Shown one piece after another: positions 6,962 to 31,496 of a stretch of 43,579 bases of DNA (position 1 is the stretch's first letter; every line of letters begins with the position of its first letter). The stretch spans positions 1 through 43,579 of the forward strand of contig JABMNW010000194.1 of the NCBI GenBank assembly GCA_013204455.1, given 5' to 3'. A program made the translations under genes and the position numbers. The notes below the pieces were generated by a model that saw only the letters and a program-made list of their open reading frames with translations, had not been told where the DNA came from and ran no database searches. This DNA is from Acidimicrobiaceae bacterium. GTDB lineage: Bacteria > Actinomycetota > Acidimicrobiia > Acidimicrobiales > Ilumatobacteraceae.

Positions 6962-6966
6962 CACGA

Positions 6967-7554
6967 ATGGAACTTATTCTCGTACGACACGGTCTTCCGC
7001 TACGCCGCGAAGCCGTAGATGGACCTGCCGACCCAGAATTATCCGACGAGGGTTACGATCAGGCCTCACGATTGGCCAAATATCTTGCCACCGAGTCAAT
7101 AAATGCAATTTATTCGAGTCCGATGCAACGTGCGATGCAGACAGCAGATCCGTTATCCAAAAAGATTGGGATACCGATTTCGGTCGTGGATGAAATCGCC
7201 GAGTTTGATCGACTATCAAACGAGTACATTCCGATTGAGGAATTACGTGCGGCAAATGATCCGCGATGGCACAAACTTGTCGCAGGCGAGTGGGATTCAG
7301 AGTCGGACACGTTTGAAGAGTTTCGCAATCGTGTGGTGTCTAGCATCGAGACGCTTGTTAACTCTCACGCATCACAACGAATTGTCATTGTCTGTCATGG
7401 TGGGGTGATCAACCAATATTTATCGCATGTGCTTGGTATCTCTACAGAACGCGGATTTTTCTATCCGCACTATACGTCGATACATCGAGTAATTGCGTCG
7501 CAGAGTGGACTGCGTTCGCTCGTAACACTTAACGAGACCGCGCATCTGCGTTAA
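6967..7554 (+). CDS. Histidine phosphatase family protein
   Basis: N-terminal ELILVRHGLPLRRE, YSSPMQRAMQTA, IVIVCHGGVINQYL. Confidence 0.9.
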   Translation: MELILVRHGLPLRREAVDGPADPELSDEGYDQASRLAKYLATESINAIYSSPMQRAMQTADPLSKKIGIPISVVDEIAEFDRLSNEYIPIEELRAANDPRWHKLVAGEWDSESDTFEEFRNRVVSSIETLVNSHASQRIVIVCHGGVINQYLSHVLGISTERGFFYPHYTSIHRVIASQSGLRSLVTLNETAHLR

Positions 7555-8399
7555 TAAATTCGTGTAAGCGGGGCAGTCAAACAGGTTGGTCCGCCGTCGC
7601 CTTTAACGGCGACGTTCGCACCATTAAAAATGTGAACGTTTACTCCATCTTCGCGCAATTTTCCCTCTATCTCGGGGTTGCCGGCCGACAGCACGACTAC
7701 GTTCGGTTCGATGGTCAAAATATTTGCGCCCTGCGTAAAGACTTCCGTATCGTTGACGGTTAGCCAGCGAATTCCGCGTGACTTGAGAAACTCAAGCAGA
7801 CGCACCGGGGCAAGTGGCTCGTAGACGACTGCTTTATCGTGTGCGATTGGCGAGAGAACGGACATTAAATGCAAAACTGCATCAGGTCCTTGAAAATGCG
7901 GAAGATCAAAAGCATGTACTTCAACGCCGAATGGAGCGAGCATCGATCGGATTTGTGCGATGCCTTCGTTGTTGGTGCGATAACCGTGACCGATCAGCAT
8001 TGTTTTGGCATCTAGCCAAACTTTGTCACCACCATCGGCGATAGCCGAACCACCAAGCTCGCCAAGAATTGGTACACCAAGTCGCTCCAAATCTTTGCGC
8101 ATCTGTGCTGGCTCTAGTTGGCGGATGCGTTTTCCCATCCGTAACAAAATTGCGCCATGTGGCGTCATGATCATCGGGTCGTGCATGTAAACCGCATCGA
8201 CCAGACCATCTGTTGCTTCGGCAATGTGCACAATGCAACCAAGCATGCTCAGCAGATCTACAAATTCGCAATGCTCCGTCACGAGTGCGGCGCGATCTGG
8301 TTCTCGCCACTGAGCATCCGTTACGAAATTGCCAACCGTCGTTGGTCGGCGCACGAGCACATGCTCAAGTTTGGACACCATGTCTGGGGTTCCCCACAT
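7551..8399 (-). CDS. Dimethylarginine dimethylaminohydrolase / amidinotransferase-superfamily protein
   Basis: N-terminal MWGTPDMVSKLEHVLVRRP; LGGSAIADGGDKVWLD; C-terminal active-site-like GDGGPTCLTAPLTR. Confidence 0.82.
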   Translation of the reverse strand: MWGTPDMVSKLEHVLVRRPTTVGNFVTDAQWREPDRAALVTEHCEFVDLLSMLGCIVHIAEATDGLVDAVYMHDPMIMTPHGAILLRMGKRIRQLEPAQMRKDLERLGVPILGELGGSAIADGGDKVWLDAKTMLIGHGYRTNNEGIAQIRSMLAPFGVEVHAFDLPHFQGPDAVLHLMSVLSPIAHDKAVVYEPLAPVRLLEFLKSRGIRWLTVNDTEVFTQGANILTIEPNVVVLSAGNPEIEGKLREDGVNVHIFNGANVAVKGDGGPTCLTAPLTRIY

Positions 8400-8424
8400 A
8401 GGGTTTAACGCTAGGCGGTGAATC

Positions 8425-9774
8425 TCAATCGTGTTGGCGTGGTCTTTCTATTGCCAGAACTTGCCGAATTGAGAGAGACATTTTGTCGACCATTTCAGTT
8501 AATTCTGCATCCGTTGAGTTATATGGGGGAGACAAAATAACCACATCTCCATTGATTCCGTCAACATTTCCGCCGACTGGATAACAAATCAGGCCATTGG
8601 CGAGAGCTTGTTGTCGAATCTTGATGTGCAATCCGTGCGATGACCCAAAGGGCTGTTTAGTTTCCTTGTTGGCCACAAGTTCTATACCGATGAAATAACC
8701 CCGACCGCGAATGTCGCCGACGGCGTCAACATCACGCAACGAATCAGCGATCATCTGTTTTAAGGTGCTTTCATTGGATCGAACTCGCTCAACTAGCCGC
8801 TCTCTTGTGACAATGGTTTGCACGGCTACACCAGCGGCACATGAGGCGGTGTGCCCCGTAAATGTGTGTCCGGTAAGTGGTGCGCCGTGGACAGAGTTGA
8901 TCGGTGCCGCAACTTTGTCGTTATATATGGCAGCTCCCAATGGCATATATCCACCGGCAAGACCCTTGGCAACCGACATGATGTCAGGTTCGGCACCGTC
9001 CTGCTCGAGTGCGCGCCACCATCCGGTGCGTCCTGCGCCACACATAACTTCATCGGCAATCATCAACACCCCGTATCGATCACAAATCTCGCGCACTCTT
9101 ACCGCGTAAGTTTCGGGAGCCGGCACGCATCCACCAGCAGCGCCGACCACTGGTTCAAAAATAAATGCCGCAACATGTTCTGGACCGATGCGAATAATTT
9201 CGTCCTCAAGTTCTTTCGCGCAGACCTCGGCTGTAGTTTCTGCACAAGCACCAAGAATTGGTCGGTATGTGTTTACGGCAGATACCCGGGCAACGTCGAT
9301 CAATGAGCCTTCGAATGCGGTTTTGCGTTCGAGAAAATCCGAAACAGAAAGTGCGCCGAGTGTGTTTCCGTGCCAAGAGCGGCGTCTGGCGATAAATTTT
9401 CGCCTATGCATGTCGTCGCGTGCTGCGTGATATTGCAATGCAAGTTTGAGACATGATTCAACTGCCTCGGAACCACCCGTTACAAAGACCATGTGGTTGA
9501 GTGTTCCGCCACACCGTGTGCTAATTATCTCGGTTAATTGTTCGAGCGCGTCCGATGTGAACGTGTAGCGATAACCGTGCGCAATGCGACCAAGCTGACC
9601 GATTATCGCCGCGTTCACTTCTTCGTTGGAATGACCAATGCAATAGACGGCTGGCCCGCCAGATCCATCGATGTATTGCTTGCCGTTGGTGTCATAAACA
9701 TATGAGCCCTTGGCCCATGCGACTTTCGGTAATGGACTTTGTGAATCAAAAATTGGAGGTTGTGTCATGGTCAT
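8425..9774 (-). CDS. Class III PLP-dependent aminotransferase
   Basis: YIDGSGGPAVYCIGHSN, VTGGSEAVESCLKLA, GVLMIADEVMCGAGRTG, SVAKGLAGGYMPLGA (lysine). The ORF opens at 9834; the internal Met at 9774 (or 9768) is the better start. Confidence 0.92.
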   Translation of the reverse strand: MTMTQPPIFDSQSPLPKVAWAKGSYVYDTNGKQYIDGSGGPAVYCIGHSNEEVNAAIIGQLGRIAHGYRYTFTSDALEQLTEIISTRCGGTLNHMVFVTGGSEAVESCLKLALQYHAARDDMHRRKFIARRRSWHGNTLGALSVSDFLERKTAFEGSLIDVARVSAVNTYRPILGACAETTAEVCAKELEDEIIRIGPEHVAAFIFEPVVGAAGGCVPAPETYAVRVREICDRYGVLMIADEVMCGAGRTGWWRALEQDGAEPDIMSVAKGLAGGYMPLGAAIYNDKVAAPINSVHGAPLTGHTFTGHTASCAAGVAVQTIVTRERLVERVRSNESTLKQMIADSLRDVDAVGDIRGRGYFIGIELVANKETKQPFGSSHGLHIKIRQQALANGLICYPVGGNVDGINGDVVILSPPYNSTDAELTEMVDKMSLSIRQVLAIERPRQHD

Positions 9775-12255: not shown

Positions 12256-13164
12256 TTACTCTGTCAATAGCTGAGCAAGCGCACTTCGTTGCACTGTGCA
12301 CTTGCCGGTATGCAAGGTGTTTGCAGTTTGACAAACGCCGGTGTTTGCGACCATTGCCAAAAAGAGTGCGGCATCAACACGCGAAATCGCGCAGTCATGC
12401 TCCACCCAGGAGAGAAGTTCGTCAAACGCGCGCCCTACTGCGCGATCAAGCGTAGTGTCTGACACAACAGTAGTTAACGCGTAAGCCGTTTCGACCCTAG
12501 GCCACCTCATGGCAGCAGGTTTCGGTCGTAACTCAACACTTGCAGTGATTCTCGTGCCAACTTCTGGCGCCTGCACAATTTCTCCGTCACCCATGATCGC
12601 CTTTGCATCGCCGAAATAGAGCATTGCGCCGGGCAGTGCGACTGGCAAAATCACTGTTGCGCCAGCGCACATTTCATTGCAATCCATATTGCCTCCGTAT
12701 ACGCCCTGCATTTTGCTGAATACTGTCTCACGTGCTGGGGATGTAGCGATGCAGCCAATCAATGGGGCTACTTGAACTCTTTGTGAATCGCTGAAATATA
12801 GGAAACCATCTTTTATCGGGTATGACTTACACCCGTACCACTGGCTCCACCAGTCGCTAGGTGTTGGATCGTCGCAGGGGCTCAAAGCCACGCTTCCAGA
12901 TGTGGTTATTTCAATCTCGTGCAGAGTAATCGCGACGACATCACCAGGTTTGGCACCGACGACTTCAATTGGCCCTGTCACTCCATCTAAATTGTCAAGC
13001 ACCCATGCCAATGTTTCGGCGCTGAAGTTTTCTGAATCGCGAAACTTACCAGTAAAGCAGTCTTGAGTATCAACACTAAATAATTCGCCAGGTACGACCT
13101 TACCAATAGGGGAATGGGTCGGGCTATATGTGAATTTCAGACTTTCTGAGTTGAAATGTTGCAT
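12256..13164 (-). CDS. Acetamidase/formamidase family protein
   Basis: VDTQDCFTGKF, GAKPGDVVAITLHEIE, YGGNMDCNEMCAGATVILPVALPGAMLYFGDAKAIMGDGEI typical of FmdA/AmdA. ORF opens at 13278; MQHFNSESL at 13164 is the likely start. Confidence 0.9.
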   Translation of the reverse strand: MQHFNSESLKFTYSPTHSPIGKVVPGELFSVDTQDCFTGKFRDSENFSAETLAWVLDNLDGVTGPIEVVGAKPGDVVAITLHEIEITTSGSVALSPCDDPTPSDWWSQWYGCKSYPIKDGFLYFSDSQRVQVAPLIGCIATSPARETVFSKMQGVYGGNMDCNEMCAGATVILPVALPGAMLYFGDAKAIMGDGEIVQAPEVGTRITASVELRPKPAAMRWPRVETAYALTTVVSDTTLDRAVGRAFDELLSWVEHDCAISRVDAALFLAMVANTGVCQTANTLHTGKCTVQRSALAQLLTE

Positions 13165-13225
13165 CATTCTCCCTTTGCGACAGACATGGAATGGCTGTCT
13201 TTCTCTTGTAGTACAAACTTGATCG

Positions 13226-13495
13226 TTAGAGTGTGGCGATTGCCTCCTCGGCCTTTTCGAAAGCAAACTCAATGTCAATTGGGGTATGTCCTAATATGTG
13301 TGGTCCCATTCCCATTACAAAGTCTAAATATTCGTTGCCGTCTACGTCCCAAATATGTGACCCTTCGGCACGAGTAAAAGTCAAAGGGCAGGGATCTCCA
13401 TATAAGCGAACATTGCTGTTCACCCCGCCTGGTATTGATCGTTGAGCTCTTTGCCAAAGGAGCATCGATTTGGGGTAACGTTCACCGTGATTCAC
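13226..13495 (-). pseudogene. Truncated glutamate-1-semialdehyde aminotransferase-like fragment (N-terminal ~89 aa only)
   Basis: MNHGERYPKSMLLWQRAQRSIPGGVNSNVRLYGDPCPLTFTRAEGSHIWDVDGNEYLDFVMGMGPHILGHTP matches the N-terminus of class III (HemL-like) aminotransferases. The frame stops at 13226 and no PLP-lysine region follows in any nearby frame. Confidence 0.75.
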
Positions 13496-13624: not shown

Positions 13625-13653
13625 TTGACAAGAGAATATAATATTGATACAGT
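13625..13653 (+). promoter_or_regulatory. Candidate promoter/operator of the ABC transporter operon (TTGACA ... AATATAATATT ... TACAGT)
   Basis: TTGACA at 13625-13630; inverted repeat AATAT-A-ATATT at 13635-13645 also contains TATAAT; upstream of the binding-protein gene. Confidence 0.45.
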
Positions 13654-13699
13654 CAAATCTAAGAGAGGTCAAAAATGGCTTCCAGGGGAAGGGAAAATC

Positions 13700-15049
13700 A
13701 TGAAACATAAGAGTTCTAATCGTATGTTCTTAGCCGTCTTGGGTGCTACTGCATTAGTAGTTGGCGCCTGTGGTGGTGGTGGGAGTACTACGCCAGATAC
13801 ACAGGCAGTTGTCGCGGATACGCAAGCGCCTGTCACCGAGGACACCGTCGCGGCATTACCATTTGAGGGGGTCACCCTTACGTTCGGTAAAGCACCACAC
13901 GGTGAAGACGAAAAGGCAAATTGGGGAGAATGGTTGCCAGAGTTTGAAGCTCAGACAGGTATCAAAGTTGAGTTGACTCAGGTTCCATGGGATCAGCTCG
14001 AGGCTTTGTACACAGCCAATTTCGCGTCCGACACGCCATATGACGTGACTTACCAAACAAGTACTCACCTCACACTCTTTGGTGAAAGAGGTACATTTGA
14101 GGACCTAACAGCTCGTATTAATGGGGCCGATTTTGCCGGGGATCTTCCAAACTTCCCTGCCGGAGTCCTCGGTGCAAGCACTTACAACAATAAGCTCTAT
14201 GGTTTGCCCTTCGTAGTTGGTACAACTGCGATGTTCGCGAATCTTGACATGTTGAAGAGCGCAGGCGTTGAAGTTCCTACATCAGATGTTGAACTCGTTG
14301 CCGCAGCCAAGGCGATTATTGCCGACCAGAAAGCAAAGGGAAATAAGGGAGTTTTAGGCTTCTATACACCGCGAACAGTGGCTGACTACGGCTGGTATTT
14401 CACATTGCAAGATGTGCACAACCGTGGTGGTGACTTCCTTTCGGCGGACGGTAAGACAGCTTTGATGGATTCAAAAGAAGTCAAGGAATCTGCTCAGTTT
14501 GCAGCAGACATGATCTGCAAGGACAAAGTCCAACCAGCTAATGGTCTGTACAACCGCGAGGCAGCGATTGAGCTCTTCAAAGCCGGAAAACTTGCTTTCA
14601 TCCAGGACGAACCAAGTCGTGTTAAGACATTTGAGGAGGCGGTGCTTCCATTCGCTTGGGACATCTACATGCCAGTGGGCCATAACGGCAAAGCGACACA
14701 GTTCGCAACCACAGGTCATTGGGCAATCTCGGCCAAGAGTAAGAATGCAGACGCTGCCTGGGAGTTAGTGAAGTTCCTAAGTTCTGCTGCGTTCAACTCG
14801 ACATATAACCAGCGTTATGGATTCGTTCCAGCTCGTCTCGATGCCGATGCAAGCGGTGGAAATGAAAAACTCGCTCGCAACGCTTCTTGGGTTGCAGTAT
14901 GGGACGGCTTGAAGACTTCTCCAAAAGTTTCTCAACTGCTTGATGAGTACGCAAAGGCACTAGAGGCAGCAACAAGTTGCAAAACTTCTGTCGATGATGC
15001 ATTTGCGAGTGCTCAAAAAGGAGCGACAGAGGCTCTAGCTCAAGGTTAA
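13700..15049 (+). CDS. Extracellular solute-binding protein, family 1 (sugar-type ABC importer lipoprotein)
   Basis: MKHKSSNRMFLAVLGATALVVGACGGGG lipobox; family-1 SBP body. ATG at 13700 has an AGGGGAAGGG ribosome site; the ORF opens at 13625. Confidence 0.93.
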   Translation: MKHKSSNRMFLAVLGATALVVGACGGGGSTTPDTQAVVADTQAPVTEDTVAALPFEGVTLTFGKAPHGEDEKANWGEWLPEFEAQTGIKVELTQVPWDQLEALYTANFASDTPYDVTYQTSTHLTLFGERGTFEDLTARINGADFAGDLPNFPAGVLGASTYNNKLYGLPFVVGTTAMFANLDMLKSAGVEVPTSDVELVAAAKAIIADQKAKGNKGVLGFYTPRTVADYGWYFTLQDVHNRGGDFLSADGKTALMDSKEVKESAQFAADMICKDKVQPANGLYNREAAIELFKAGKLAFIQDEPSRVKTFEEAVLPFAWDIYMPVGHNGKATQFATTGHWAISAKSKNADAAWELVKFLSSAAFNSTYNQRYGFVPARLDADASGGNEKLARNASWVAVWDGLKTSPKVSQLLDEYAKALEAATSCKTSVDDAFASAQKGATEALAQG

Positions 15050-15070
15050 ATAATAATTTAGAAATTTATT

Positions 15071-15107
15071 GAGTGGGGTGGTTGACTCATGGTCAATCAC
15101 CCCACTC
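15071..15107 (+). terminator. Strong intra-operon hairpin (terminator or mRNA-stabilising stem)
   Basis: GAGTGGGGTGGTTGAC-TCATG-GTCAATCACCCCACTC: 16-bp stem with one G/T wobble, 5-nt loop, followed by TATTATTT. Confidence 0.8.
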
Positions 15108-15186
15108 TATTATTTGGATCCGATGGAGACTTTTTGTGGATTTGGTAGAACAGAATCTTTCAGATCCAGATTGGCAAGAGCTTACG

Positions 15187-16095
15187 ATGTCGGACGAAGA
15201 ATTTCGTAGAGCACGTTCGCGCTACAAATTACGAGCACTTGTTCCAGTAGTTGGATTCCTTGGACCGTTTTTATTTCTCTGGTCTGTGTTTTTGGCAACT
15301 CCAATGGTTTGGTCAATCTGGCTTAGTTTCAATACGGGTGGGCTGATTGACGAAGCGAAGTTCGTTGGTCTTGAAAACTGGTCCCGAATGCTGTCGAATG
15401 ATGAACTTGTTAGGTCGCTTAAGAACACAGCAACTTATGTTGTGATTGCAATTTTTGTTGTCTTTAGTCTTGCATTACTAATCGCCAGTTTGCTCAACAG
15501 TAATAAAAGAGGCCAGAATTTCTTCAAAGTCGCGTTATATTTTCCACTTCTAGTGCCACCAATTATGGCTGGAATGATTTTCTTTTTTTTAACGCATTAT
15601 GACATGGGTATTATTAATCTTGTGTTACAAGCAATGAATCAAGAAAAATTAAATTTCTTGGGCGATAATCCAAATGCCCTACTAACCATCGTTTCTCTCG
15701 AAGTGTGGCGTGGACTCGGATTTTGGGTTCTATTCTTCCTCGCAGGATTACAAAGTATCCCAGCAGATCTCATCGATGCCGCAAAAATTGACGGCGCAGG
15801 ATCTATGAGACGGTTTCGAAAAATTTCAATTCCAACATTGAGGCCACTTTTATTGTTCGCGGTCATAATTGCACTCATTTTTAATTTTCAATTATTCGAC
15901 TCTGTCCAAGTTCTGACCAAAGGTGGACCAGTTCTTGGCACAACCTCAGTGGTTTGGTTTATTTATAAGAGACTATTTGCGTTCCAAGATATTGGCCTTG
16001 CGTATGCAACAAGTGTAGGACTACTCCTACTAGTGGTCGTACTTACGGTTGTAGCTTATGGATTTCTTGGTAAAAAATCAGAGAACTCGAACTAG
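15187..16095 (+). CDS. ABC transporter permease (MalF-like)
   Basis: Multi-TM; EVWRGLGFWVLFFLAGLQSIPADLIDAAKIDGAGSMRRFRKISIPTLRPLL EAA-loop. Start could be 15187 (ATG) or a GTG near 15136; the ORF-track start at 15073 lies inside the hairpin. Confidence 0.9.
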   Translation: MSDEEFRRARSRYKLRALVPVVGFLGPFLFLWSVFLATPMVWSIWLSFNTGGLIDEAKFVGLENWSRMLSNDELVRSLKNTATYVVIAIFVVFSLALLIASLLNSNKRGQNFFKVALYFPLLVPPIMAGMIFFFLTHYDMGIINLVLQAMNQEKLNFLGDNPNALLTIVSLEVWRGLGFWVLFFLAGLQSIPADLIDAAKIDGAGSMRRFRKISIPTLRPLLLFAVIIALIFNFQLFDSVQVLTKGGPVLGTTSVVWFIYKRLFAFQDIGLAYATSVGLLLLVVVLTVVAYGFLGKKSENSN

Positions 16096-16103
16096 GTCAA
16101 CGC

Positions 16104-17003
16104 ATGTCTCTGAAGTCTGAACATACTAAAGAACTCCATGATCTTGCTCTGCAAAATTCTCGCATTCGTCGGACGAAGTCTGTGATTGCGTATGCAGTTT
16201 TAGGGCTATTTGTGTTTGCGTCCGTGGGACCAATTATCTACATTATTTCTCCTGCGTTTCGTGAGAGTAAATCTCTCTTTTCCTATCCGCCACAGTGGTT
16301 ACCTAATAGTTTTTATCTTGGTAATTTTAAGTTTTTGCTTTCGGAAACTAATTATATTCGCTGGGGCATTAATACTTTTATATTTGCAACGGGCGTCACA
16401 GTAATCGCATTGATAATTGACACCCTCGCGGGATACGCATTCGCTCGAATGGAGTTTCCCGGGAAAAAAATAATATTTGGGCTTGTCCTCGCAACGCTAA
16501 TGGTGCCAACAGCGGCACTTCTTGCGCCAACTTATTTGCTTGTTCGAAATTTGGACGATTGGACATTTGGTTTAATTGGTCTTGATACTTATGGTGGTTT
16601 GATCATTCCGATGACGGTGTCTCCATTAGGTGTGTTTATGATGCGACAATTCATTGAGACCCTGCCAAAGGGTCTTTTTGAAGCCGCACGTATTGATGGA
16701 GCAAGCGAATGGCGTATTTTTACAAGAATAGTTTTGCCTCTGATGAAGCCCGCCGTCGTTGTGCTCGGAATATTTGTGTTCATGATGCAGTGGGCAAATT
16801 TTCTTTGGCCGCTTGTCATTACTACGAAGGATGAGACTCGGGTTTTGACCGTTGGAATTGCGACCTTACAGGGACAGTTCGTTACGAACTGGGGTGTAAT
16901 AGCAGCGGCAACACTTATGACTCTTGCTCCTATAACTCTAGTTTTCTTATTTTTTCAAAGGTGGTTTGTTCAGGCAAGTATGGCAGGAGCATTAAAACAA
17001 TGA
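16104..17003 (+). CDS. ABC transporter permease (MalG-like)
   Basis: Multi-TM; FIETLPKGLFEAARIDGASEWRIFTRIVLPLMKPA EAA-loop. Confidence 0.93.
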   Translation: MSLKSEHTKELHDLALQNSRIRRTKSVIAYAVLGLFVFASVGPIIYIISPAFRESKSLFSYPPQWLPNSFYLGNFKFLLSETNYIRWGINTFIFATGVTVIALIIDTLAGYAFARMEFPGKKIIFGLVLATLMVPTAALLAPTYLLVRNLDDWTFGLIGLDTYGGLIIPMTVSPLGVFMMRQFIETLPKGLFEAARIDGASEWRIFTRIVLPLMKPAVVVLGIFVFMMQWANFLWPLVITTKDETRVLTVGIATLQGQFVTNWGVIAAATLMTLAPITLVFLFFQRWFVQASMAGALKQ

Positions 17004-17024
17004 GTCAAAGAAATTGGAGACGTA

Positions 17025-18131
17025 ATGGCTGAAGTAATCATCCGAAAGTTAACTAAATCATTTGGCGACAATACAGTAGTCAAGTCTGTCTCGCTCAAAG
17101 TAGAAGATGGGGAATTCTTGGTTCTACTCGGTCCCTCTGGTTGTGGGAAAAGTACGATTCTTCGGCTAATCGCCGGATTGGAAGACGTAACATCCGGTGA
17201 GATTTTGATCAATGGGGAGATCGTTAACTTCGTAAGCCCAGTAAAGCGCAATGCGGCATTTGTTTTTCAGAACTACGCTCTGTATCCGCATATGACGGTA
17301 AGAAAAAACGTGGCCTTTCCGCTCGAGACGGCACGCTTACCGAAAGATGAGATAAATAAAGCAATTGATGAGGCTGCACGGATACTTGAATTGCAGCAAT
17401 TGCTAGATAGGTTACCTAGTCAGCTCTCTGGCGGGCAAAGACAGCGAGTAGCTCTTGCTCGGGCAATCGTTCGTAAGCCTGTAGTTTTTTTGATGGACGA
17501 ACCTCTTTCTAATCTTGATGCTCAACTTAGACAACAGACACGAATTGAATTAATGGAACTACACCAACGTCTTGGAGTTACAACTATTTATGTGACTCAC
17601 GATCAGATCGAGGCAATGACAATGGGTAAACGCATTGCCATTCTGAAGGATGGGGAGTTACAGCAAGTTGATACTCCTTCGGAAACCTATGACAAACCTG
17701 CGAACACTTTTGTGGCGAGATTTATGGGTGCACCCCCAATGAATTTAATTCAAGGGAGGATCGAGGCAGGCGTTCGTCAATTTACGTTTAATGGGGACGG
17801 TATTTTGGTCACACTTAACTCATCTCAAATGGGTTTAACAGATGAAGTGTTATCACTTCAGCTGAATGCGGCAGTCTGCCTCGGCGTGCGGCCCGAGCAT
17901 GTTCGTATTTCTACAGATTTGTCTGTGGAAGGAGTATCTGGAAAAGTCAAATTTCTCGAGCCAACCGGTGCCGATCTTTTCGTGACTGTTTCAATCGGAA
18001 TACAAAATGTTGTTGTACGTTGTCCACCTAAGACTCCCATGCAGATTGGGTCAACTGTCACCATTGCCTTTGATATGACTCACACCCATATTTTCGGTGC
18101 TGATGGTTGGAATTTGCGCAGAAGTAATTAG
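17025..18131 (+). CDS. ABC transporter ATP-binding protein (MalK/UgpC type)
   Basis: Walker A GPSGCGKST, signature LSGGQRQRVALARAI, Walker B VVFLMDEPLSNLDA, C-terminal TOBE-like region. Confidence 0.95.
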   Translation: MAEVIIRKLTKSFGDNTVVKSVSLKVEDGEFLVLLGPSGCGKSTILRLIAGLEDVTSGEILINGEIVNFVSPVKRNAAFVFQNYALYPHMTVRKNVAFPLETARLPKDEINKAIDEAARILELQQLLDRLPSQLSGGQRQRVALARAIVRKPVVFLMDEPLSNLDAQLRQQTRIELMELHQRLGVTTIYVTHDQIEAMTMGKRIAILKDGELQQVDTPSETYDKPANTFVARFMGAPPMNLIQGRIEAGVRQFTFNGDGILVTLNSSQMGLTDEVLSLQLNAAVCLGVRPEHVRISTDLSVEGVSGKVKFLEPTGADLFVTVSIGIQNVVVRCPPKTPMQIGSTVTIAFDMTHTHIFGADGWNLRRSN

Positions 18132-19390
18132 AAATAGGTTGAAACCACCGAAATTACGTTGTAGTTGTCATCGACTATTGGGATCATTCGCCATTTGTCA
18201 AATGCAGTGCAGGGGTGCGATATACCTGCGCCGACGAAATCTCCTACGTTTAGGTCTGTATTCGAATCTAAACGAACAAATGCATGTTGGTCATTTAAGT
18301 CAAATATTGTTAGGCCGCCTGCAGACTCTAATTTATTATTTCCCAGACGTTTTATCCATAATCCTGTTGGTAGGTCAATATCGTACGCGACGTCACGTTT
18401 TCCAAAGTTTAGCAATGCGAGGTTTCGCTCGGGACGTGAAATTACCGCGCCCCAAATCTCGAGTGCAGGTTTAAGAGCTTTAGTTTGAAGACGTGACCCA
18501 AATGGCGATGCACGGCTATAAAGTCCATGGTCATGCGTTATGTAGCATCCGCTACGTAAAACGATGCGAATTGGAGTTTGCCCAGTCCAACTAGCACTAA
18601 ATTTTGCTGCCACACGATCTGGAAAAGCACTACCGCCCGCGCTAAGTATGACTTCTGGTACGTTTGAAAAATGTCCTTGCTGCTCAAGGATTTGAGCAGT
18701 CTCAAACACCTGTTCAAGGAATGAATCAACTTGTTTGACACCGTCTGGGTCGTAGTGGATCACTCCTTCGAAAGCCTCAACTCCGGCAAGGGTTAAGTGA
18801 TTGGATCTAAGCACGGCGGCAACTGTCGAGCTAATTTGCTCTTTGTCTCTACATCCAGTTCGACCATTTGGAATTCCGAGCTCAAGTAGGACCTTAAGTG
18901 GGGAGCTCTTTGGAGTTTTACTCAGTACGTCATCCATTATCTCGACACCCAGCGCTGAATCGACTAGGCAGAAAATCTCAAAATTTGGGTCATTCAACTG
19001 TTCGGAGATCCAGGACAAGGAACTAGGTTCTACAACTTCACTTGCAATTAAAATTCTGGGCGACCCAAACTGCCGAAAAATTTTAGCTTGGCTAACTGTT
19101 GCGGCCGTGATTGCCCAAGATCCTGCTTCGAACTGGCGTGAGATTATTTCTGGAGACATTGTGGTCTTACCGTGAGGTGCAATTGAAAATCCGCGTTCTT
19201 TGCAGTAACCGTGAACGACATCGAGGTTGTGGTTCATCGCTGTTTCTTTTAGAACGAGTACCGGGAGGCATAGGTCGCCGGACAATAGATTCCAGTTTTG
19301 CTCTGCAATAAAGTCTGGACTCATATTGTCTGTAACAGGAAAACCCTTATGCCTCCAATCAACAATCGTTTCTTGACGGAGCGTTGTCAC
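18128..19390 (-). CDS. DSD1-family PLP-dependent amino acid deaminase/dehydratase (alanine racemase-like fold)
   Basis: LPVLVLKETAMNHNLDVVHGYCKERGFSIAPHGKTTMSPEI; C-terminal GAGISHPCTAFDKWRMIPIVDD (His/Cys Zn-site region of DSD-like enzymes). Confidence 0.85.
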   Translation of the reverse strand: MTTLRQETIVDWRHKGFPVTDNMSPDFIAEQNWNLLSGDLCLPVLVLKETAMNHNLDVVHGYCKERGFSIAPHGKTTMSPEIISRQFEAGSWAITAATVSQAKIFRQFGSPRILIASEVVEPSSLSWISEQLNDPNFEIFCLVDSALGVEIMDDVLSKTPKSSPLKVLLELGIPNGRTGCRDKEQISSTVAAVLRSNHLTLAGVEAFEGVIHYDPDGVKQVDSFLEQVFETAQILEQQGHFSNVPEVILSAGGSAFPDRVAAKFSASWTGQTPIRIVLRSGCYITHDHGLYSRASPFGSRLQTKALKPALEIWGAVISRPERNLALLNFGKRDVAYDIDLPTGLWIKRLGNNKLESAGGLTIFDLNDQHAFVRLDSNTDLNVGDFVGAGISHPCTAFDKWRMIPIVDDNYNVISVVSTYF

Positions 19391-19770
19391 TTGGCAGTTG
19401 CCGACCAGAGAATCGCGTCAATTTCAATACCTATCCCACCCAAACCACAAGAAACTGTCGTGCGAGTTGGATACGGCAAAGGAACAACTTCTTTATAAAT
19501 TCTGTCCATGGTCTCAAAATTTTCCATTGACTCGATGTACACATTTATTTTCACTGCGTCACCAAGAGAGAATCCAGCTGCTTGTGCGACTTGGCTTAAA
19601 TTCATAAAAACCTGTTGAACTCTTTGTTCGAAACTTGGGTTAACAGGTTCACCATCGGGTGCAGCTGGACCTTGACCAGAAAGAAAAAGGAACTGACCAG
19701 CGCGAATCGCCTGGTTGTATCCGCCACTCGGAGCAGGTGCTTTATCTGTGAATATAGGTATTTTTGACAT
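19387..19770 (-). CDS. RidA family (enamine/imine deaminase)
   Basis: FTDKAPAPSGGYNQAIRAGQFLFLSGQGP ... LGGIGIEIDAI; 4-bp overlap with the downstream DSD1-like gene. Confidence 0.9.
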   Translation of the reverse strand: MSKIPIFTDKAPAPSGGYNQAIRAGQFLFLSGQGPAAPDGEPVNPSFEQRVQQVFMNLSQVAQAAGFSLGDAVKINVYIESMENFETMDRIYKEVVPLPYPTRTTVSCGLGGIGIEIDAILWSATAK

Positions 19771-19813: not shown

Positions 19814-20107
19814 CTACTCAGCCTTAGCAATTGCCGCATCGCGCCGATCACGTAAGGCAGAGCAGCCAGCGCGTACCACGCGAAGTTCTTCAGTCAAACT
19901 CATTGAACAGTTGCTTCGACGTGTGTTTGCAGGGTATTCGCGCGTACGGATATATACCTCAGCAATCTTGGGACTGCAGAATGGAACCTGCTCTTCATCG
20001 ATATTTTCAAGCCAAATCGATCTTGGAATATTCTTGCCGCAATAGTCGCAATTATAAAGATCGAAAGAGAGGTACATCGGCGATCTCTCTATCCACTTCC
20101 CGCTCAT
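19814..20107 (-). CDS. Small Cys-containing protein linked to HyuB (zinc-ribbon-like N-terminus)
   Basis: 97 aa; YNCDYCGKNIPRSIW...VPFCSPKIAEVY; 4-bp ATGA overlap with the upstream hydantoinase B gene. Confidence 0.6.
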   Translation of the reverse strand: MSGKWIERSPMYLSFDLYNCDYCGKNIPRSIWLENIDEEQVPFCSPKIAEVYIRTREYPANTRRSNCSMSLTEELRVVRAGCSALRDRRDAAIAKAE

Positions 20108-21891
20108 GACTTATCCTTTCTTCCAATTCTTGGTGTGACATTCCAATTACCGTCTGAATCTAGTTCCGCTTTCAGTCCATAATCATGCTCTGCGGCCTCG
20201 GGTGTTATAAAGCCCTCACGCAAATCAGCCTCAACTCTCTCCGATGAACGTCTCATCGGATCTCCCCACCCACCACCTCCTGGCGCAATTATTTTTACTT
20301 GGTCACCCCTTCGCAAAGTAATGTTGGAAAATTTTGATGGAGAGGTAGTTCCGAACGCATTACTAAACGTTTCCCAATCCTTAGAACCTTTGCGACGAAA
20401 ATAAATTCCACTGTTCTTTCCTGGTTTTCCACCATGAATACCAAATGGATCAACTGTCATTCGATTGAATATCGCACTGACTGTTATCGAGTCTGCCTCC
20501 ATTGTCATGATTCGTTCAATTCCAAGTCCGCCCCTGTTCTCTCCAGCGCCACCTGAATCTTCAAGAAGTCGGTAAGACTCAACTCGTATTGGATAGCGAG
20601 TTTCAAATACTTCGACCGGGGTATTCCGACAATTACCGTTAATCACGATGATCTGACTGTTTCCGTCCTTTGTCGGGCGTCCACCCCATCCAGTCCCTTC
20701 AAAATGAAAATGAGAATACAAATCGCCAGATCCTGGTTGAGCACCTCCAAAGAGGAAGCAACATGAAGTGCCTCCCTGTGACGCGGGAACTCGGTCTGGG
20801 AGGGCGTTCGCGAGAGCTCCAAAAATAATATCTGTAATTCGCGGGCTAAGTTCCGTATTCCCACCGACCAGTGGTGCTGGAAACTCGCAGTTAACGATTG
20901 TCCCAGGTGGAGCGATTGTATGTATTGGACGGTAGCAGCCCTCATTCCGAGGAATTGTTGGATCTGTCAAATGCATCAACGCGTTGTACACCGCTGACGC
21001 AGTGACGGCGAATGTCCCATTCATTGGTCCTGCAGCTTGTAATGAAGACCCAGTGAAATCGCAGGTAATCTGATCATCGTCAACGACAACTTTGCAGCGC
21101 ACCGTGTATGGAATATTAAGGACACCGTCATCTTCAATGATGTCTTCGAAGAAGTACTCGCCATCTGGGATTTGTCTAATTTCTTCACGCATTCGTCGCT
21201 CCGCAATCCGGATGAGATCGTTAGTCGCATTTTGGTAAGTCTCAAGTCCATATTTTTCAATGAGACTAGTTAATCGACGTTCGGCAACGTTGAGTGATCC
21301 AACCATGGCCATCAGGTCTCCGTAGGTTGTCTTTGGTGTTCGGTGGTTAGCAAAAATTATTTTCCAGATGTCTTCTTGTGGTATTCCTTCGCGTTGCAGC
21401 CATAGTGGCGGTAGCCGAAGTCCTTCTTGAAATATGTCAGTTGCATCGCCAGCTAGTCCACCCGGTGCCTTGGCTCCTGGTTCGGCTAGGTGGGCACAAT
21501 TGGCAACGAAAGCGACAATCTCGCCCTTGTGAAAAACTGCCTTAAGCAAGGTGTGCTCTGGGATATGACCACTCCCGCGATAAGGGTCATTCATGATGAT
21601 TACATCTCCCGGTTTGTAAACGTCGGGACCTAACTCATCAATCATCCATTCAACAGTGAATTTAATAGTTCCAATCTGCGAAGGACAGAACTCAGCCTGT
21701 GAGATCATTCGACCATACTTGTCAAAAAGCACACAAGAGAAATCAAGTGATTCATTGAACATCGGAGAGTATGCGGTGCGCATCATGGCTATACCCATTT
21801 CACGACACGTTGTTGCTAAGTAATTATCAATTACGGTGAGCGTAACTTGATCTACTTTTAGATCAGGCGAACTGGAAACTCTAGTCGTCAT
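20104..21891 (-). CDS. hyuB: Hydantoinase B / oxoprolinase family protein
   Basis: EMGIAMMRTAYSPMFNESLDFSCVLFD, GDVIIMNDPYRGSGHIPEHTLLKAVF, GGAGENRGGLGIER, APGGGGWGDP. Confidence 0.93.
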   Translation of the reverse strand: MTTRVSSSPDLKVDQVTLTVIDNYLATTCREMGIAMMRTAYSPMFNESLDFSCVLFDKYGRMISQAEFCPSQIGTIKFTVEWMIDELGPDVYKPGDVIIMNDPYRGSGHIPEHTLLKAVFHKGEIVAFVANCAHLAEPGAKAPGGLAGDATDIFQEGLRLPPLWLQREGIPQEDIWKIIFANHRTPKTTYGDLMAMVGSLNVAERRLTSLIEKYGLETYQNATNDLIRIAERRMREEIRQIPDGEYFFEDIIEDDGVLNIPYTVRCKVVVDDDQITCDFTGSSLQAAGPMNGTFAVTASAVYNALMHLTDPTIPRNEGCYRPIHTIAPPGTIVNCEFPAPLVGGNTELSPRITDIIFGALANALPDRVPASQGGTSCCFLFGGAQPGSGDLYSHFHFEGTGWGGRPTKDGNSQIIVINGNCRNTPVEVFETRYPIRVESYRLLEDSGGAGENRGGLGIERIMTMEADSITVSAIFNRMTVDPFGIHGGKPGKNSGIYFRRKGSKDWETFSNAFGTTSPSKFSNITLRRGDQVKIIAPGGGGWGDPMRRSSERVEADLREGFITPEAAEHDYGLKAELDSDGNWNVTPRIGRKDKS

Positions 21892-23936
21892 TTGAGTACC
21901 TCTAAGATCAAAATATCGTATGGATTACGGATTACTTTCATACCAGGTTCAACAAGAGTTGTTGAACCGTCTTCTTCGATGATCAGTGGGCCTTCGAAAG
22001 AAACATTAACTGGCATTGATTTTCGACGGATCACAGTGCAGGGGACTGTCCCGAGCATTTCAAAATGAACGCTTCGTGTTTGAGTAATTTGTGTCCCTGT
22101 ATCTGTAAGAGTTGCGAGTTTCGGATGCTGGATCAGACCAATTGCAGCAACTTTGAAACTGATCATTTCAATTACGGCTTCGTTCATACTGTATTCATAC
22201 ATCGCGATATGTTTGCGATTGAAAGCCTCGTAGGCGCTTTCGATCTGCTCCTTTGCTGACTCATTATTAGTACTACGTAGTGACGGAACAACAACTTCCA
22301 TTTCATAATTTTGCCCTAGGTATCTCATGTTTATTGAGTATTCATAGGTTGGCTCACCTTCGAAACCTTGTTGCCTAAGTTCGATAGCCGCTGCATCGGC
22401 AATAACATCAAATCGTTCTACAACTTCGCTCGGCGTAACTCGGTCTGATCTAAATGACTGGGTCCATACCTTGTCCACACGTAAATCGCCCATCAGTAGT
22501 CCCAACGCACAAAATCCACCTGGATATGGGGGAATAATAACCTTTGGTATCCCTAATTTACGCGCGATCGCGGATCCATGCAGCGGCCCAGCGCCGCCAA
22601 AGGCGAGGAGGGCGAAATTACGGGGGTCATGTCCACGTTCAATACTTACCATTCGAATCGCATTCGCCATGTTCTCGTTTGCAATTTCTACAACTGCTAG
22701 TGCTAACTCGAGATCTTTCATTCCTAGAATTTTTGATAATCTCCCGAGCTCGGCATCGATCAAAGATCTATCAAGTTGTAGCTTTCCTCCGAGGAAGTAA
22801 TCCGGGTTCAGTCGTCCGAGAGTTAGATTTGCGTCAGTTAACGTAATATTTGTGCCACCTTGGCCGTAACAGATAGGACCTGGAACGGCACCAGCGCTTC
22901 TTGGTCCTACTTGAAGAAATCCGCCCGAATTGACTGAAGCAATGGATCCACCTCCGGCTCCAACCGTCTTAATGTCGATAAGCGGAATTGCTGCTGGGAT
23001 TCCCCATTCAATTTCGTATTCAGTCGTATAGCTAATTTGTCCATCCAGAACCATTCCAACATCTGCGCTTGTTCCACCTACGTCAATGGTCACTACATTA
23101 TTGAGTCCGAGCAGCGCAGAAACACGTTGACTAGCGACAGCTCCACCAGCAGGACCAGACATCGCCAAGTGGATTGGCTGTAATGCTGCAGCATCCGCAT
23201 TCATAAGACCACCATTTGACTTCATCAGTGACCATGGGTGAATGAAGCCTGCATCTGCAAGACCACTTTTTAGGCTGCTCACATAATTTTGAATTAATGG
23301 TTTGATGAATGCGTCAGCGATTGTGGTGCTAGACCTCTCGTACTCGCGCCAAATCGGCGCAATTTCATGCGAAACTGAGATTGGAAGATTGGGGAATCTC
23401 TCTCGCAGTCGGTTCGCTAGAAGTTTCTCATGAGTAGTGTTTAGATATGAGAACAATAGGCAGATCGCTAAAGATTCATAATTTCCAGCATCTACGTGAT
23501 CTATAACGCGATCGATATCAGCGTCTTCTAGTTTTGTGACTATCTCGCCTTTGGCGTTTACGCGCTCGTTAACGCCAATGCAGTTTCTCCTACTTTGAAA
23601 CAACGGCGTGGGTTTATCCCAAGTTAAGTCGTAAAGAAATTGACGATTCACACGCTGAATATAGGCCGTATCTTCATATCCAGCGGTACAAATAAAACCC
23701 ACTTTCGCTCCAGTTCTCTGGATAAGCGCATTCGTTGCAACTGTTGTGCCATGAACCAGTCCCTCAATATTATTTAGGGGCACTTCGGACTGCTTTAGCG
23801 CTCCGACAAAGGCTTGAAGTGGCTTACTGGGAGTACTCGGAACCTTGAGCGATGAGATCTCGCCCGTGCTCATGTTAAATCGAACCAGGTCTGTAAAAGT
23901 TCCGCCCGTGTCTATACCAATTCGGTAGTTAGTCAT
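21888..23936 (-). CDS. hyuA: Hydantoinase A / oxoprolinase family protein
   Basis: YRIGIDTGGTFTDLVRF, GLVHGTTVATNALIQRTGAK, VVTIDVGGTSADVGMV, FGGAGPLHGSAIARKLGIPKVIIPPYPGGFCALGLLMGDLR. ORF opens at 23972; MTNYRIG at 23936 is the likely start. Confidence 0.93.
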   Translation of the reverse strand: MTNYRIGIDTGGTFTDLVRFNMSTGEISSLKVPSTPSKPLQAFVGALKQSEVPLNNIEGLVHGTTVATNALIQRTGAKVGFICTAGYEDTAYIQRVNRQFLYDLTWDKPTPLFQSRRNCIGVNERVNAKGEIVTKLEDADIDRVIDHVDAGNYESLAICLLFSYLNTTHEKLLANRLRERFPNLPISVSHEIAPIWREYERSSTTIADAFIKPLIQNYVSSLKSGLADAGFIHPWSLMKSNGGLMNADAAALQPIHLAMSGPAGGAVASQRVSALLGLNNVVTIDVGGTSADVGMVLDGQISYTTEYEIEWGIPAAIPLIDIKTVGAGGGSIASVNSGGFLQVGPRSAGAVPGPICYGQGGTNITLTDANLTLGRLNPDYFLGGKLQLDRSLIDAELGRLSKILGMKDLELALAVVEIANENMANAIRMVSIERGHDPRNFALLAFGGAGPLHGSAIARKLGIPKVIIPPYPGGFCALGLLMGDLRVDKVWTQSFRSDRVTPSEVVERFDVIADAAAIELRQQGFEGEPTYEYSINMRYLGQNYEMEVVVPSLRSTNNESAKEQIESAYEAFNRKHIAMYEYSMNEAVIEMISFKVAAIGLIQHPKLATLTDTGTQITQTRSVHFEMLGTVPCTVIRRKSMPVNVSFEGPLIIEEDGSTTLVEPGMKVIRNPYDILILEVLK

Positions 23937-23943
23937 GGAAGAA

Positions 23944-23953
23944 TTATATATAA
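23944..23953. promoter_or_regulatory. AT-rich palindrome TTATATATAA upstream of hyuA
   Basis: Perfect 10-bp palindrome just upstream of the preferred hyuA start. Confidence 0.35.
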
Positions 23954-24023
23954 TATAACCTTCGGTGGACAAATTAATAGATGATTTTCTAGCGCCAAAA
24001 TTACAACAACAAACATTTTCAGC

Positions 24024-24047: not shown

Positions 24048-24830
24048 ATGTCTCAGATCTTAAAAAAACGCCTTAGCGGTCGTGTTGCAGTGGTTACGGG
24101 GGGAGCGAGAGGAATTGGCAAGGCCATTGTTCTTCGTTTGGCAGAAGAAGGTGCGACAGTAGTGTTTACTCAGCGTTCCCAAGACGAAGGTATTAATTTT
24201 GAATCAAGTCTTATATCGCGGGGATATGGTGCAAAATTTATTTCTGCGGATATTAGATCACCCAATGAAGTCAAGAGAGTTTTCGATTTCGTTCGTAGCG
24301 AATATCATCGCCTCGATATCGTTTGCAACAATGCCGCAGTTGGGCTTTTGAGGTCAGTAGTCGATACAACCGATGAGCAATTTGTGGACTTGATGGCGAC
24401 AAACGTTCAAAGTATTTTTTTGACTTCACGGTTTGCTATTCCACTAATGATGGAAGGGTCGGGAGGAAGTGTGATCAATATTGGCTCTATCGCCGCAGAT
24501 GTTGGGTTACTAGATGACGCCGCGTATTGTGCGTCCAAGGGTGCAGTTCATGCATTAACTCGTCAAATGGCGTTAGATTACGCGAAAGCAGGGATTCGTG
24601 TTAACTGTGTTGCTCCTGGATTTATTGAGACAGAACAAATGCGTGTTTACATTGCTAGTCATCATGATGATGCTCATAGGGTCAAACAACAGATCATTGA
24701 TCTTCATCCATTGGGTCGGGTTGGTCAACCTTCGGAAGTTGCGTCAGCCGTAGCTTTTTTGGCATCCGATGATGCGTCTTTTATTACTGGAACTTCACTT
24801 GCGGTTGATGGCGGATTACTAGCTCGATAG
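24048..24830 (+). CDS. SDR family oxidoreductase
   Basis: VAVVTGGARGIGKAI, NNAAVG, YCASKGAVHALTRQMALDYAKAGIRVNCVAPGFIET. Confidence 0.93.
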   Translation: MSQILKKRLSGRVAVVTGGARGIGKAIVLRLAEEGATVVFTQRSQDEGINFESSLISRGYGAKFISADIRSPNEVKRVFDFVRSEYHRLDIVCNNAAVGLLRSVVDTTDEQFVDLMATNVQSIFLTSRFAIPLMMEGSGGSVINIGSIAADVGLLDDAAYCASKGAVHALTRQMALDYAKAGIRVNCVAPGFIETEQMRVYIASHHDDAHRVKQQIIDLHPLGRVGQPSEVASAVAFLASDDASFITGTSLAVDGGLLAR

Positions 24831-26594: not shown

Positions 26595-28865
26595 TTGGGG
26601 GAAATCATGGCAATCAAGCGACCTGATGCTAAACGAGCTGAATTACTTGGGTATTCGGATCGACCAAGTGCGTGCCCGGGCGAGAACATGCAATTTATGG
26701 TCAGCTCAGAGTTCGCAAGTTACGAAGCAAGTCTTGTTCGCCTCATCCATGGAGATACGAATAACGCTGGACCAGGTTTTAAAGAAGCGGTAATCGAATC
26801 GCCAATAAATGGTGTCTATGCAGGTACTCATCAAGAGTCGCATGTTGGGTCTCACATAGAAATCAAAAACTCCGGAGTTATTGGCGCGCTTAGGTCATTT
26901 ACTGTTCAGGCATGGATTAAGCCATCTAAACCATCATCTAGTTCCGATCAAGGGGTCGTGTCGTCTTGGTCAACTAATAATTCGGGGTTCAGCCTTGGAT
27001 TAGATGTAGTTGGGCACGCATTTGTCGAAGTTGGGTCGAGTAGTGGGCTGGAGCGGGTCACATCGGGTCATCCTTTGCGTGCTGGGGTTTGGTATTTTAT
27101 TGCTGGCGGATATGACAATCGTACAAAAAAATTAGTCCTTGTCGTACATGGATCACCAAAGTGGCCTCTTTCGGATTCAGATATGGTTGCTGAGCGAAAT
27201 TTGTCGAAAAATTTCAAAATTGATTGCTCAGCGGATCTATTGATCGGGGCTAAGTCTCAAAAAAAGAGTCTTAAAGGAAAGATGGCTACAGCGGGACACT
27301 TTAATGGAAAGATTGAACATCCCCGTTTATTCTCGCGGCTACTTGATACAGATGAGTTATCGGAACTGAGCAACCTCGCAGACCCGAAGAAATTTGGCTC
27401 CGTTTTTGGGATATGGGATTTTTCAAGCAATTTTGAATCCAGTGAGATTAAAGATTTATCGCAGAATCGAATTGATGGAGTATGTGTAAATTATCCGACC
27501 AGAGCGTTACTCGGGCATATTTGGGATCGTGAAACTTTCGATTTTCGAACTAATCCCTCGTTGTATTGCGCCATCGAATTTCATGAAGATGACAATGCAG
27601 ATAGTGATTGGGATGTAAGCGTTGATTTAAAAATTCCGGATGACCTAAAGAGCGGAATTTATGCGCTTAGATTACGAGCGGGTGACACTGAGGATCACAT
27701 TCCATTTTTTGTTCGGCCCAGACGAGGAAAAACCACGGCTGATATCTGTTATTTGATTCCCACGATCACGTATCAGGCATACGCAAACGAAAGTGTCCTT
27801 GCTACATCGCTTGATACCGATTGGAGCGCGATGACAGACATAGAGATTGTTCCTGATCTATATGACACTTATGTCTGGGATCATCCAGAGCTGGCTTACT
27901 CAATTTACGATAGACATTCCGACGGATCGGGGATTAATTATTCAAGTTGGAAACGTCCGATATTAAATATGCGTCCAAAGCACCGATTTTGGGTGACTGG
28001 TGCACCCCGTCATTTTGCGGCAGATCTTTACGTAACGGACTGGCTAGAAGCCAAGGAGCATAAATATGACATCTTGACTGATCATGACCTTCATCAAGAT
28101 GGCGTGTCATCCATCTCTGATTACAAAGTGATAATCACCGGAAGTCATCCAGAATATTGGACGGAGGCAATGCAAAATGCACTAGAGACTTATCTCGCCG
28201 ATGGAGGGCGGCTGATTTATTTGGGCGGCAACGGTTTCTATTGGGTGACGGCAGTCAATCCAGAACAATCTCATGTAATAGAAGTACGACGGGGCTACGC
28301 CAGTTCTCGAACCTGGACCAGCCATCCGGCCGAACTTCATCTTGCATCAACTGGAGAAAAGGGTGGAATCTGGCGTTTTCGTGGGAGATCACCGAACTCC
28401 TTAGTTGGAGTTGGATTTGCGGCTCAAGGTTGGTCAAAGACGACGCCAGGGTATAAACGTCTTCCAGATAGTTATGATTCGCGCGCTGCCTTTATTTTTG
28501 ATGGAGTAGAAGACGAAATAGTTGGCGACTTTGGTCTTGTGATGAATGGCGCATCGGGAGACGAAATAGACCGATTTGACTATGGCCTTGGCACACCAAC
28601 TCACGCCATGCGCCTTGCAACATCTCAGGGATTGCAAAGTTCGTATTACCTAGTCACGCACGAAGACTTACTTGTGACAGACAAGAATGTTGATGGAACA
28701 AATAATCAAAACGTTCGGTCCGACATTGTCTATTTTGAGGGAGTGGGAGGATCAGCGGTCTTTTCTATTCCTGCAATGGGGGCGTCTGGAAGTCTTTCGC
28801 ATAATAATTACGAAAATAATATTTCGAGAATTATGGATAATGTAGTTCGTGAATTCACGAAATAG
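26595..28865 (+). CDS. N,N-dimethylformamidase large (beta) subunit homologue with internal LamG-like domain
   Basis: GYSDRPSACPGENMQFMVSSE...VRLIHGDTNNAGPGFKEA; LamG-like SFTVQAWIKPS; ITYQAYANES, SDGSGINYSSWKRPILNMRPKHRFW, ITGSHPEYWTEAMQNALETYLADGGRLIYLGGNGFYW, as remembered for the DMFase beta-subunit family. ATG at 26607 is an alternative start. Confidence 0.88.
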   Translation: MGEIMAIKRPDAKRAELLGYSDRPSACPGENMQFMVSSEFASYEASLVRLIHGDTNNAGPGFKEAVIESPINGVYAGTHQESHVGSHIEIKNSGVIGALRSFTVQAWIKPSKPSSSSDQGVVSSWSTNNSGFSLGLDVVGHAFVEVGSSSGLERVTSGHPLRAGVWYFIAGGYDNRTKKLVLVVHGSPKWPLSDSDMVAERNLSKNFKIDCSADLLIGAKSQKKSLKGKMATAGHFNGKIEHPRLFSRLLDTDELSELSNLADPKKFGSVFGIWDFSSNFESSEIKDLSQNRIDGVCVNYPTRALLGHIWDRETFDFRTNPSLYCAIEFHEDDNADSDWDVSVDLKIPDDLKSGIYALRLRAGDTEDHIPFFVRPRRGKTTADICYLIPTITYQAYANESVLATSLDTDWSAMTDIEIVPDLYDTYVWDHPELAYSIYDRHSDGSGINYSSWKRPILNMRPKHRFWVTGAPRHFAADLYVTDWLEAKEHKYDILTDHDLHQDGVSSISDYKVIITGSHPEYWTEAMQNALETYLADGGRLIYLGGNGFYWVTAVNPEQSHVIEVRRGYASSRTWTSHPAELHLASTGEKGGIWRFRGRSPNSLVGVGFAAQGWSKTTPGYKRLPDSYDSRAAFIFDGVEDEIVGDFGLVMNGASGDEIDRFDYGLGTPTHAMRLATSQGLQSSYYLVTHEDLLVTDKNVDGTNNQNVRSDIVYFEGVGGSAVFSIPAMGASGSLSHNNYENNISRIMDNVVREFTK

Positions 28866-31094: not shown

Positions 31095-31496
31095 TCAGGG
31101 CAATACTTCCGTGACAGATTGGTAACCCGCGCGTTCAAGCGAAGAGACTCCTCCAAGTACCCACAGAATGACCATGTCTTCATCGCTTGTGCAACATGCT
31201 GAGTGTGGAGTATTTTTGGGGACGAAAACCACATCACCTGGCGAGATGTCATAGATGCTCTCACCAACTCGATGCCAACCGGATCCGGACATTACTATCA
31301 CGACTTCCTCCGCGTGAGGGTGGAGGTGGTGCTCATGGGTTCCACCACGAGCTGGGTAAATTGTTTGTCCGACACCAACTAATTGCGCTCCTTGGCGGAC
31401 TTCATTTACCAGCCACCTCACATCTAAGTGCGAAAATGCAGTACCCGTAAGATCTGATCGTGAGGTTGTCTTTGGATTTACGACATATTCAGCCAT
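31095..31496 (-). CDS. Cupin domain-containing protein
   Basis: YPARGGTHEHHLHPHAEEVVIVMSGSGWHRVGESIYDISPGDVVFVPKNTPHS. Confidence 0.9.
   Translation of the reverse strand: MAEYVVNPKTTSRSDLTGTAFSHLDVRWLVNEVRQGAQLVGVGQTIYPARGGTHEHHLHPHAEEVVIVMSGSGWHRVGESIYDISPGDVVFVPKNTPHSACCTSDEDMVILWVLGGVSSLERAGYQSVTEVLP

Follow-up and report, generated by a model that had tools for sequence, protein, structure and literature searches.

N,N-dimethylformamidase (DMFase, EC 3.5.1.56) is the reference enzyme for an iron site of unusual make-up, with two tyrosines and one carboxylate. The ligands have been assigned as Tyr399, Tyr440 and Glu521, and the mutants Y440A, E521A, H519A, N547A and E657A are all inactive (PMC7686228). 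Glu657 has been proposed as the base and Asn547 as the stabiliser of the oxyanion, whilst the pocket is closed by Phe693, which is contributed by a neighbouring chain (PMC7686228). The large subunit of the Paracoccus enzyme is inactive by itself (PMC7686228). A second structure of the family, that of N-acetyl-(R)-beta-phenylalanine acylase (8huy), contains no chain other than the acylase, and none was matched as a small subunit; its substrate is taken from the PDB name.

Here we describe a homologue of the DMFase large subunit (DMFA2) from an Acidimicrobiaceae bacterium. It lies in a stretch of 43,579 nucleotides (contig JABMNW010000194.1), referred to below as the window.

Results

Gene, fold and iron site

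The ORF at 26595-28865 on the forward strand is intact and encodes 756 aa when counted from a TTG start. The true start is probably the ATG at 26607 rather than the TTG at 26595, giving a protein of 752 aa. The ATG is preferred because a GGGGGA Shine-Dalgarno sequence lies just upstream, overlapping the TTG, and because the same arrangement is found in the 79%-identical homologue of another Acidimicrobiaceae MAG (L005). The features of the gene, with residue counterparts taken from the alignment and from PMC7686228, are as follows:

26607-28865, forward: solo amidohydrolase of the DMFA2 type, homologous to the DMFase large subunit, with 752 aa when read from the likely ATG
26850-27359, forward: LamG/pentraxin-like domain (DMFase domain II), residues 86-255 (Pfam Laminin_G_3, 1.4e-13)
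27522-28814, forward: DMFA2_C catalytic domain, residues 310-740 (PF20254)
27780-27782, forward: Tyr396, counterpart of iron ligand Tyr399
27906-27908, forward: Tyr438, counterpart of iron ligand Tyr440
28146-28148, forward: His518, counterpart of essential His519
28152-28154, forward: Glu520, counterpart of iron ligand Glu521
28230-28232, forward: Asn546, counterpart of Asn547, the proposed oxyanion stabiliser
28563-28565, forward: Glu657, counterpart of the proposed catalytic base Glu657 (59/59 alignment rows)
28674-28676, forward: Val694, at the position of the pocket-closing Phe693 of DMFase (alignment; low-confidence loop)

The Pfam match to DMFA2_C (2.4e-88, 297.5 bits against a curated cut-off of 27) places the protein in this family; a search of NCBIfam with the same protein returned no match. 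The best phmmer hit in the PDB was the large subunit of Paracoccus DMFase (6lvb, residues 16-756, E 8e-143), a likeness that is not due to chance, and 8huy was also matched (E 3e-115). Identity to the Paracoccus aminophilus enzyme is 39%. An AlphaFold model (mean pLDDT 89.4, pTM 0.90) superimposes on the full chain of 6lvb_A with a TM of 0.92 and on 8huy with a TM of 0.86. The initial annotation, made from the letters alone, had proposed the DMFase large-subunit layout and a structure overlay as its check. The Ig-like, pentraxin and ThuA-like catalytic domains are indeed all present, as are the motifs that it listed (PSACPGE, RLIHGD, ITYQAYANE, GINYSSWKRP and GSHPEY).

As residue identities, the two-tyrosine, one-glutamate iron site of DMFase and its essential His, Asn and Glu are all retained. 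The window protein and its entire clade have all six; across the family the ligand and catalytic positions are conserved in 58/59 aligned members, and Glu657 in 59/59. Loss of the iron ligands, which the initial annotation had named as grounds for abandoning its reading, was therefore not seen in the alignment. It had also placed the Tyr/Tyr/Glu set within the motifs quoted. The residues themselves are there, but the second tyrosine, Y438 in SIYDRHSDGSG, precedes GINYSSWKRP rather than lying inside it. The Phe693 gate of DMFase is not kept: the window protein has Val694 at this position, which is variable across the family and sits in a loop (residues 691-694) with a pLDDT below 50.

The small subunit at the locus, in the genome and in the clade

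Beside the gene only 70 bp of free sequence remain on the upstream side and 12 bp on the downstream side, and both neighbouring genes are oppositely directed. A small-subunit profile was seeded with the small subunits of P. aminophilus and Mycobacterium and iterated over all fetched loci. Searched against the six frames of the window, it found no small subunit (best E 0.21), in line with the earlier remark that no such ORF is adjacent. A 127-aa ORF at 19387-19770, similar in size to the small subunit, is a RidA protein. A 133-aa ORF at 31095-31496, considered as an alpha subunit, was ruled out, its Pfam match being to the cupins. No extra domain or big insertion that would obviously substitute for the small subunit was seen in the alignment of the window protein.

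The genome to which the window belongs is 73% complete, so absence cannot be proved from it alone. A genome-wide search, which the initial annotation had called for, returned a single small subunit with a profile from a broader alignment (A3), at C168:24476-24757 (E 2.5e-33). A model of this 95-aa ORF (pLDDT 86) has 6lvb_B as its best fold match (TM 0.77). It lies directly upstream of a second DMFA2 gene, C168:24793-26937, which is 38% identical to that of the window and belongs to a different clade. The initial annotation would have been refuted by a small-subunit gene of matching phylogeny elsewhere in the genome; the 95-aa ORF adjoins a DMFA2 of its own, from another clade, and was ruled out as the partner of the window gene. 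The organism thus combines a two-subunit DMFA2 with a solo one.

A phylogeny of 59 full-length relatives, recomputed under the C20 mixture model with the longest row left out, places the window gene within a 19-member clade (SH-aLRT 98 in the first tree, 99 with C20) and outside the clade containing the known DMFases. Profile searches of the loci, and inspection in the case of L043, revealed an adjacent or fused small subunit in 0/19 members. The acylase 8huy was represented in the tree by its C-terminal part only, as read from the printed alignment; it joins L006 and L007 (SH-aLRT 100%), apart from the window clade. Small subunits are likewise lacking from the 8huy group and from a group of 14 rows, and occur only in the group of the known DMFases, in that of the C168 paralogue and in one or two isolated rows. 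The trait requires 2-3 changes by parsimony on this tree, whose root and deep joins are uncertain owing to several rows with long branches.

Whole-genome profile searches were made in 18 genomes carrying solo-type genes, and 16 of them had no small subunit (93-99% complete where stated). The remaining two, G406 and G411, have one directly before another DMFA2. No small subunit was found anywhere in five solo-clade genomes that are 93-97% complete (G316, G263, G675, G202 and G359), or by the profile search in G183 and the genome of L005. The only convincing small-subunit domain in G056, G098 and G130 is in frame with another DMFA2 paralogue. Absence across both clade and whole genomes makes the lack of a small subunit a property of the branch and not of incomplete assembly. 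The small alpha subunit of N,N-dimethylformamidase is thus missing here, with none adjacent, the only copy in the genome belonging to a paralogue and the clade devoid of it. The suggestion that this may be a single-subunit enzyme is well supported by the comparison, and the solo form appears, from sequence, to be a stable branch of the family that works without a helper subunit. The present analysis adds two points: being solo is a trait of a clade, and one organism has retained both types.

Gene neighbourhood

The genes upstream of DMFA2 in the window that recur at other DMFA2 loci are listed below:

12256-13278, reverse: FmdA/AmdA-family acetamidase/formamidase (domain match)
13625-18131, forward: ABC importer, with binding protein 13625-15049, permeases 15073-16095 and 16104-17003, and ATPase 17025-18131 (Pfam)
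18128-19390, reverse: BhcC/D-serine dehydratase-like PLP enzyme (PF14031)
19387-19770, reverse: RidA-family enamine/imine deaminase (domain match)
20104-23972, reverse: HyuB 20104-21891 and HyuA 21888-23972, hydantoinase/oxoprolinase-type ATP-dependent amidohydrolase (Pfam)
24048-24830, forward: SDR oxidoreductase (Pfam); an SDR also precedes DMFA2 in L039-L041 and L043

In the window these genes lie dispersed, some on one strand and some on the other. Among the nearest solo relatives, at 46-53% identity, the DMFA2 gene is part of an operon; in L040 the linked genes form a single one, in the order binding protein, permease, permease, ATPase, Amidohydro_3, BhcC/D-serine-dehydratase-like PLP enzyme, SDR, DMFA2, RidA. 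The link with DMFA2 is specific for the importer and RidA, whose best matches are DMFA2-linked copies in genomes of the same order. For the binding protein these are at the DMFA2 locus in G056, G098 and G130 (53% against 28% for the next best). For RidA they lie directly after DMFA2 in G056, G098 and G183 (49-52%), whilst the best copy in G130 is on another contig. The PLP enzyme matches the BhcC model below its cut-off, and the enzyme of the same family in L040, two genes before DMFA2, is 23-24% identical to it. A more distant solo carrier, G425, holds FmdA, HyuB, HyuA, DMFA2 and an ABC importer together, as in the window, with identities of 43% and 55% for HyuA/B and 33% for FmdA. Synteny between L005 and the window runs from HyuA through the E1 dehydrogenase pair. 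As annotated, the linked genes (ABC importer, RidA, BhcC-like PLP enzyme, HyuAB and FmdA) suggest the catabolism of an imported N-acyl compound.

The region of the window from 9946 to 42936 is dense in genes for the catabolism of amides, rings and oxo-acids, much of it syntenic in L005. It includes members of the carotenoid-oxygenase family, SGL, FmdA, HyuAB, a CnbZ-like protein, the DHDPS family and two amidases, together with a PhyH dioxygenase, an amidohydrolase, cupins, an FAH hydrolase, the E1 dehydrogenase pair and several SDRs. As a candidate pathway, the catabolism of homarine was looked into; a literature search returned nothing usable.

Other arrangements of the small subunit and breadth of the family

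A small-subunit domain was also found at the C-terminus of a branched-chain-type ABC permease (L117 6281-7936, Agrobacterium pAt, WP_099086993.1), with PF02653 at residues 132-395, the small-subunit domain at 434-550 and DMFA2 as the next gene. A second such fusion is present within the order of the window (L047 11585-13153, genome G181). Many plasmids of Agrobacterium and Rhizobium, and one of Aminobacter, have matches to the L117 domain beneath features annotated as this permease. These fusions raise the prospect that the DMFA2 enzyme may dock on its own importer. L108 was rejected as a further permease fusion; its ORF is artefactual in the upstream part, and a gene of its own encodes the small subunit.

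A different fusion is seen in L048 (9368-12121) and also in L035, L036 and L050, where an N-terminal small-subunit domain is followed by DMFA2 in a single ORF, the two being joined in L048 by a Gly/Ser-rich linker. These are apparently one-gene versions of the two-subunit enzyme. On p1 of Aminobacter niigataensis, a 149-aa ORF directly after DMFA2 (L116 10385-10834) is a marginal small-subunit match (E 0.073), and a clear match also lies upstream of that DMFA2. At 6728-8995 of L047 a paralogue without equivalents of Tyr440, Glu521 and His519 adjoins an intact DMFA2 copy; judged by these residues, it is likely a non-catalytic partner or a dead enzyme. Many genomes of the class to which the window belongs encode shorter PF20254 proteins of about 500-600 aa. 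These are too short for the full DMFase layout with its LamG insert, and the family is broader than the name DMFase would imply.

Discussion

Fold, residues and clade make it likely that the window gene encodes an amidohydrolase of the DMFase large-subunit family that has a single chain and a mononuclear iron. Fe(III) held by Tyr396, Tyr438 and Glu520 would serve as the Lewis acid, with Glu657 activating water and Asn546 stabilising the oxyanion, a chemistry that follows from the conserved residues and is established for DMFase. The working form would be a homodimer in which domains I-III are stable by themselves. More tentatively, the substrate might be a small N-acyl or N-formyl compound, not DMF, that enters through the linked ABC transporter and is hydrolysed to a free amino compound, which the BhcC-like PLP enzyme and RidA could then convert to an oxo-acid and ammonia. 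We infer the class of substrate from gene linkage and from the precedent of 8huy. An amide other than DMF is a plausible substrate because the Phe693 gate is replaced and the neighbours are unlike those of the DMF plasmids.

A bolder reading, which is conceivable but which we would not favour, is that the clade forms a distinct branch of single-chain iron-tyrosinate amidohydrolases whose dedicated substrate is a natural N-acyl amino compound brought in by import, the small subunit being an add-on of certain branches that the iron chemistry does not require. An N-acyl-D- or beta-hydroxy-amino acid, for example, would pass through the importer, be deacylated by DMFA2, undergo elimination or aldol cleavage by the PLP enzyme and reach RidA. 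The small subunit of certain branches could then be fused equally well to the enzyme or to the permease of its importer.

The window protein is unlikely to be a genuine N,N-dimethylformamidase or formamidase whose small subunit has been lost. It is 39% identical to DMFase with identical catalytic residues, and an FmdA-family formamidase/acetamidase is encoded nearby; yet the gate residue is Val, the gene is not in the clade of known DMFases and the linked genes resemble enzymes of amino acids and oxo-acids rather than of methylamines. The opening of a cyclic amide, be it a lactam, a hydantoin or the ring product of an N-heterocycle, is similarly improbable. The gene has HyuAB and a CnbZ-like deaminase in its neighbourhood, and DMFA2 is again accompanied by HyuAB in G425, but ATP-dependent ring opening would be the job of HyuAB itself, and the characterised members cut acyclic amides, either N-formyl (DMFase, PMC7686228) or, by its PDB name, N-acetyl (8huy).

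We think it more doubtful still that the enzyme has two subunits after all, its partner being missing from the 73% complete genome or the small subunit of C168 serving both large subunits. The one small-subunit gene on C168, and the inactivity of the Paracoccus large subunit alone (PMC7686228), speak for such an arrangement. Against it stand the five solo-clade genomes noted above, which lack any small subunit at 93-97% completeness, and G056, G098 and G130, where a domain in frame with the other paralogue could hardly be lent to a solo enzyme; elsewhere, the small subunit always lies directly before its own DMFA2. That the protein is a catalytically dead or structural paralogue, as the L047 copy at 6728-8995 may be, is scarcely credible given that all six ligand and catalytic residues are kept in it and in its entire clade, and that its ORF is unbroken, with 79% conservation in L005.

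A clade that keeps the iron site and is never found with a small subunit provides natural proteins for asking what the small subunit is for. With one ABC importer and a handful of catabolic enzymes linked to the gene in a conserved manner, the natural substrate of such enzymes should be within reach, beyond man-made solvents.

Comparison with known systems

The single-chain amidohydrolase proposed here shares with Paracoccus DMFase (6lvb) the full-length fold, domains I-III, the iron ligands and the equivalents of His519, Asn547 and Glu657. It differs in lacking the small alpha subunit, in having Val at the position of Phe693, and in its clade and gene neighbourhood. With N-acetyl-(R)-beta-phenylalanine acylase (8huy, 8i59, 8i5a) it shares the fold, the catalytic residues and the single chain, there being no partner gene in the window; identity is only about 32% and the two fall in separate clades. 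The novelty of the window enzyme is limited in so far as 8huy is an already solved single-chain member. The other DMFA2 of this genome (G000, C168:24793-26937) is of the same family, but unlike the window gene it is directly preceded by a diverged small subunit of its own, whose fold matches 6lvb_B. The solo DMFA2 operons of G056, G098, G130 and G183, from the same order, share 46-53% identity, the lack of a small subunit and a linked ABC importer, SDR, PLP enzyme and RidA that are orthologues or relatives of those in the window. These operons are compact and include Amidohydro_3, whereas the window genes are spread over both strands with HyuAB added.
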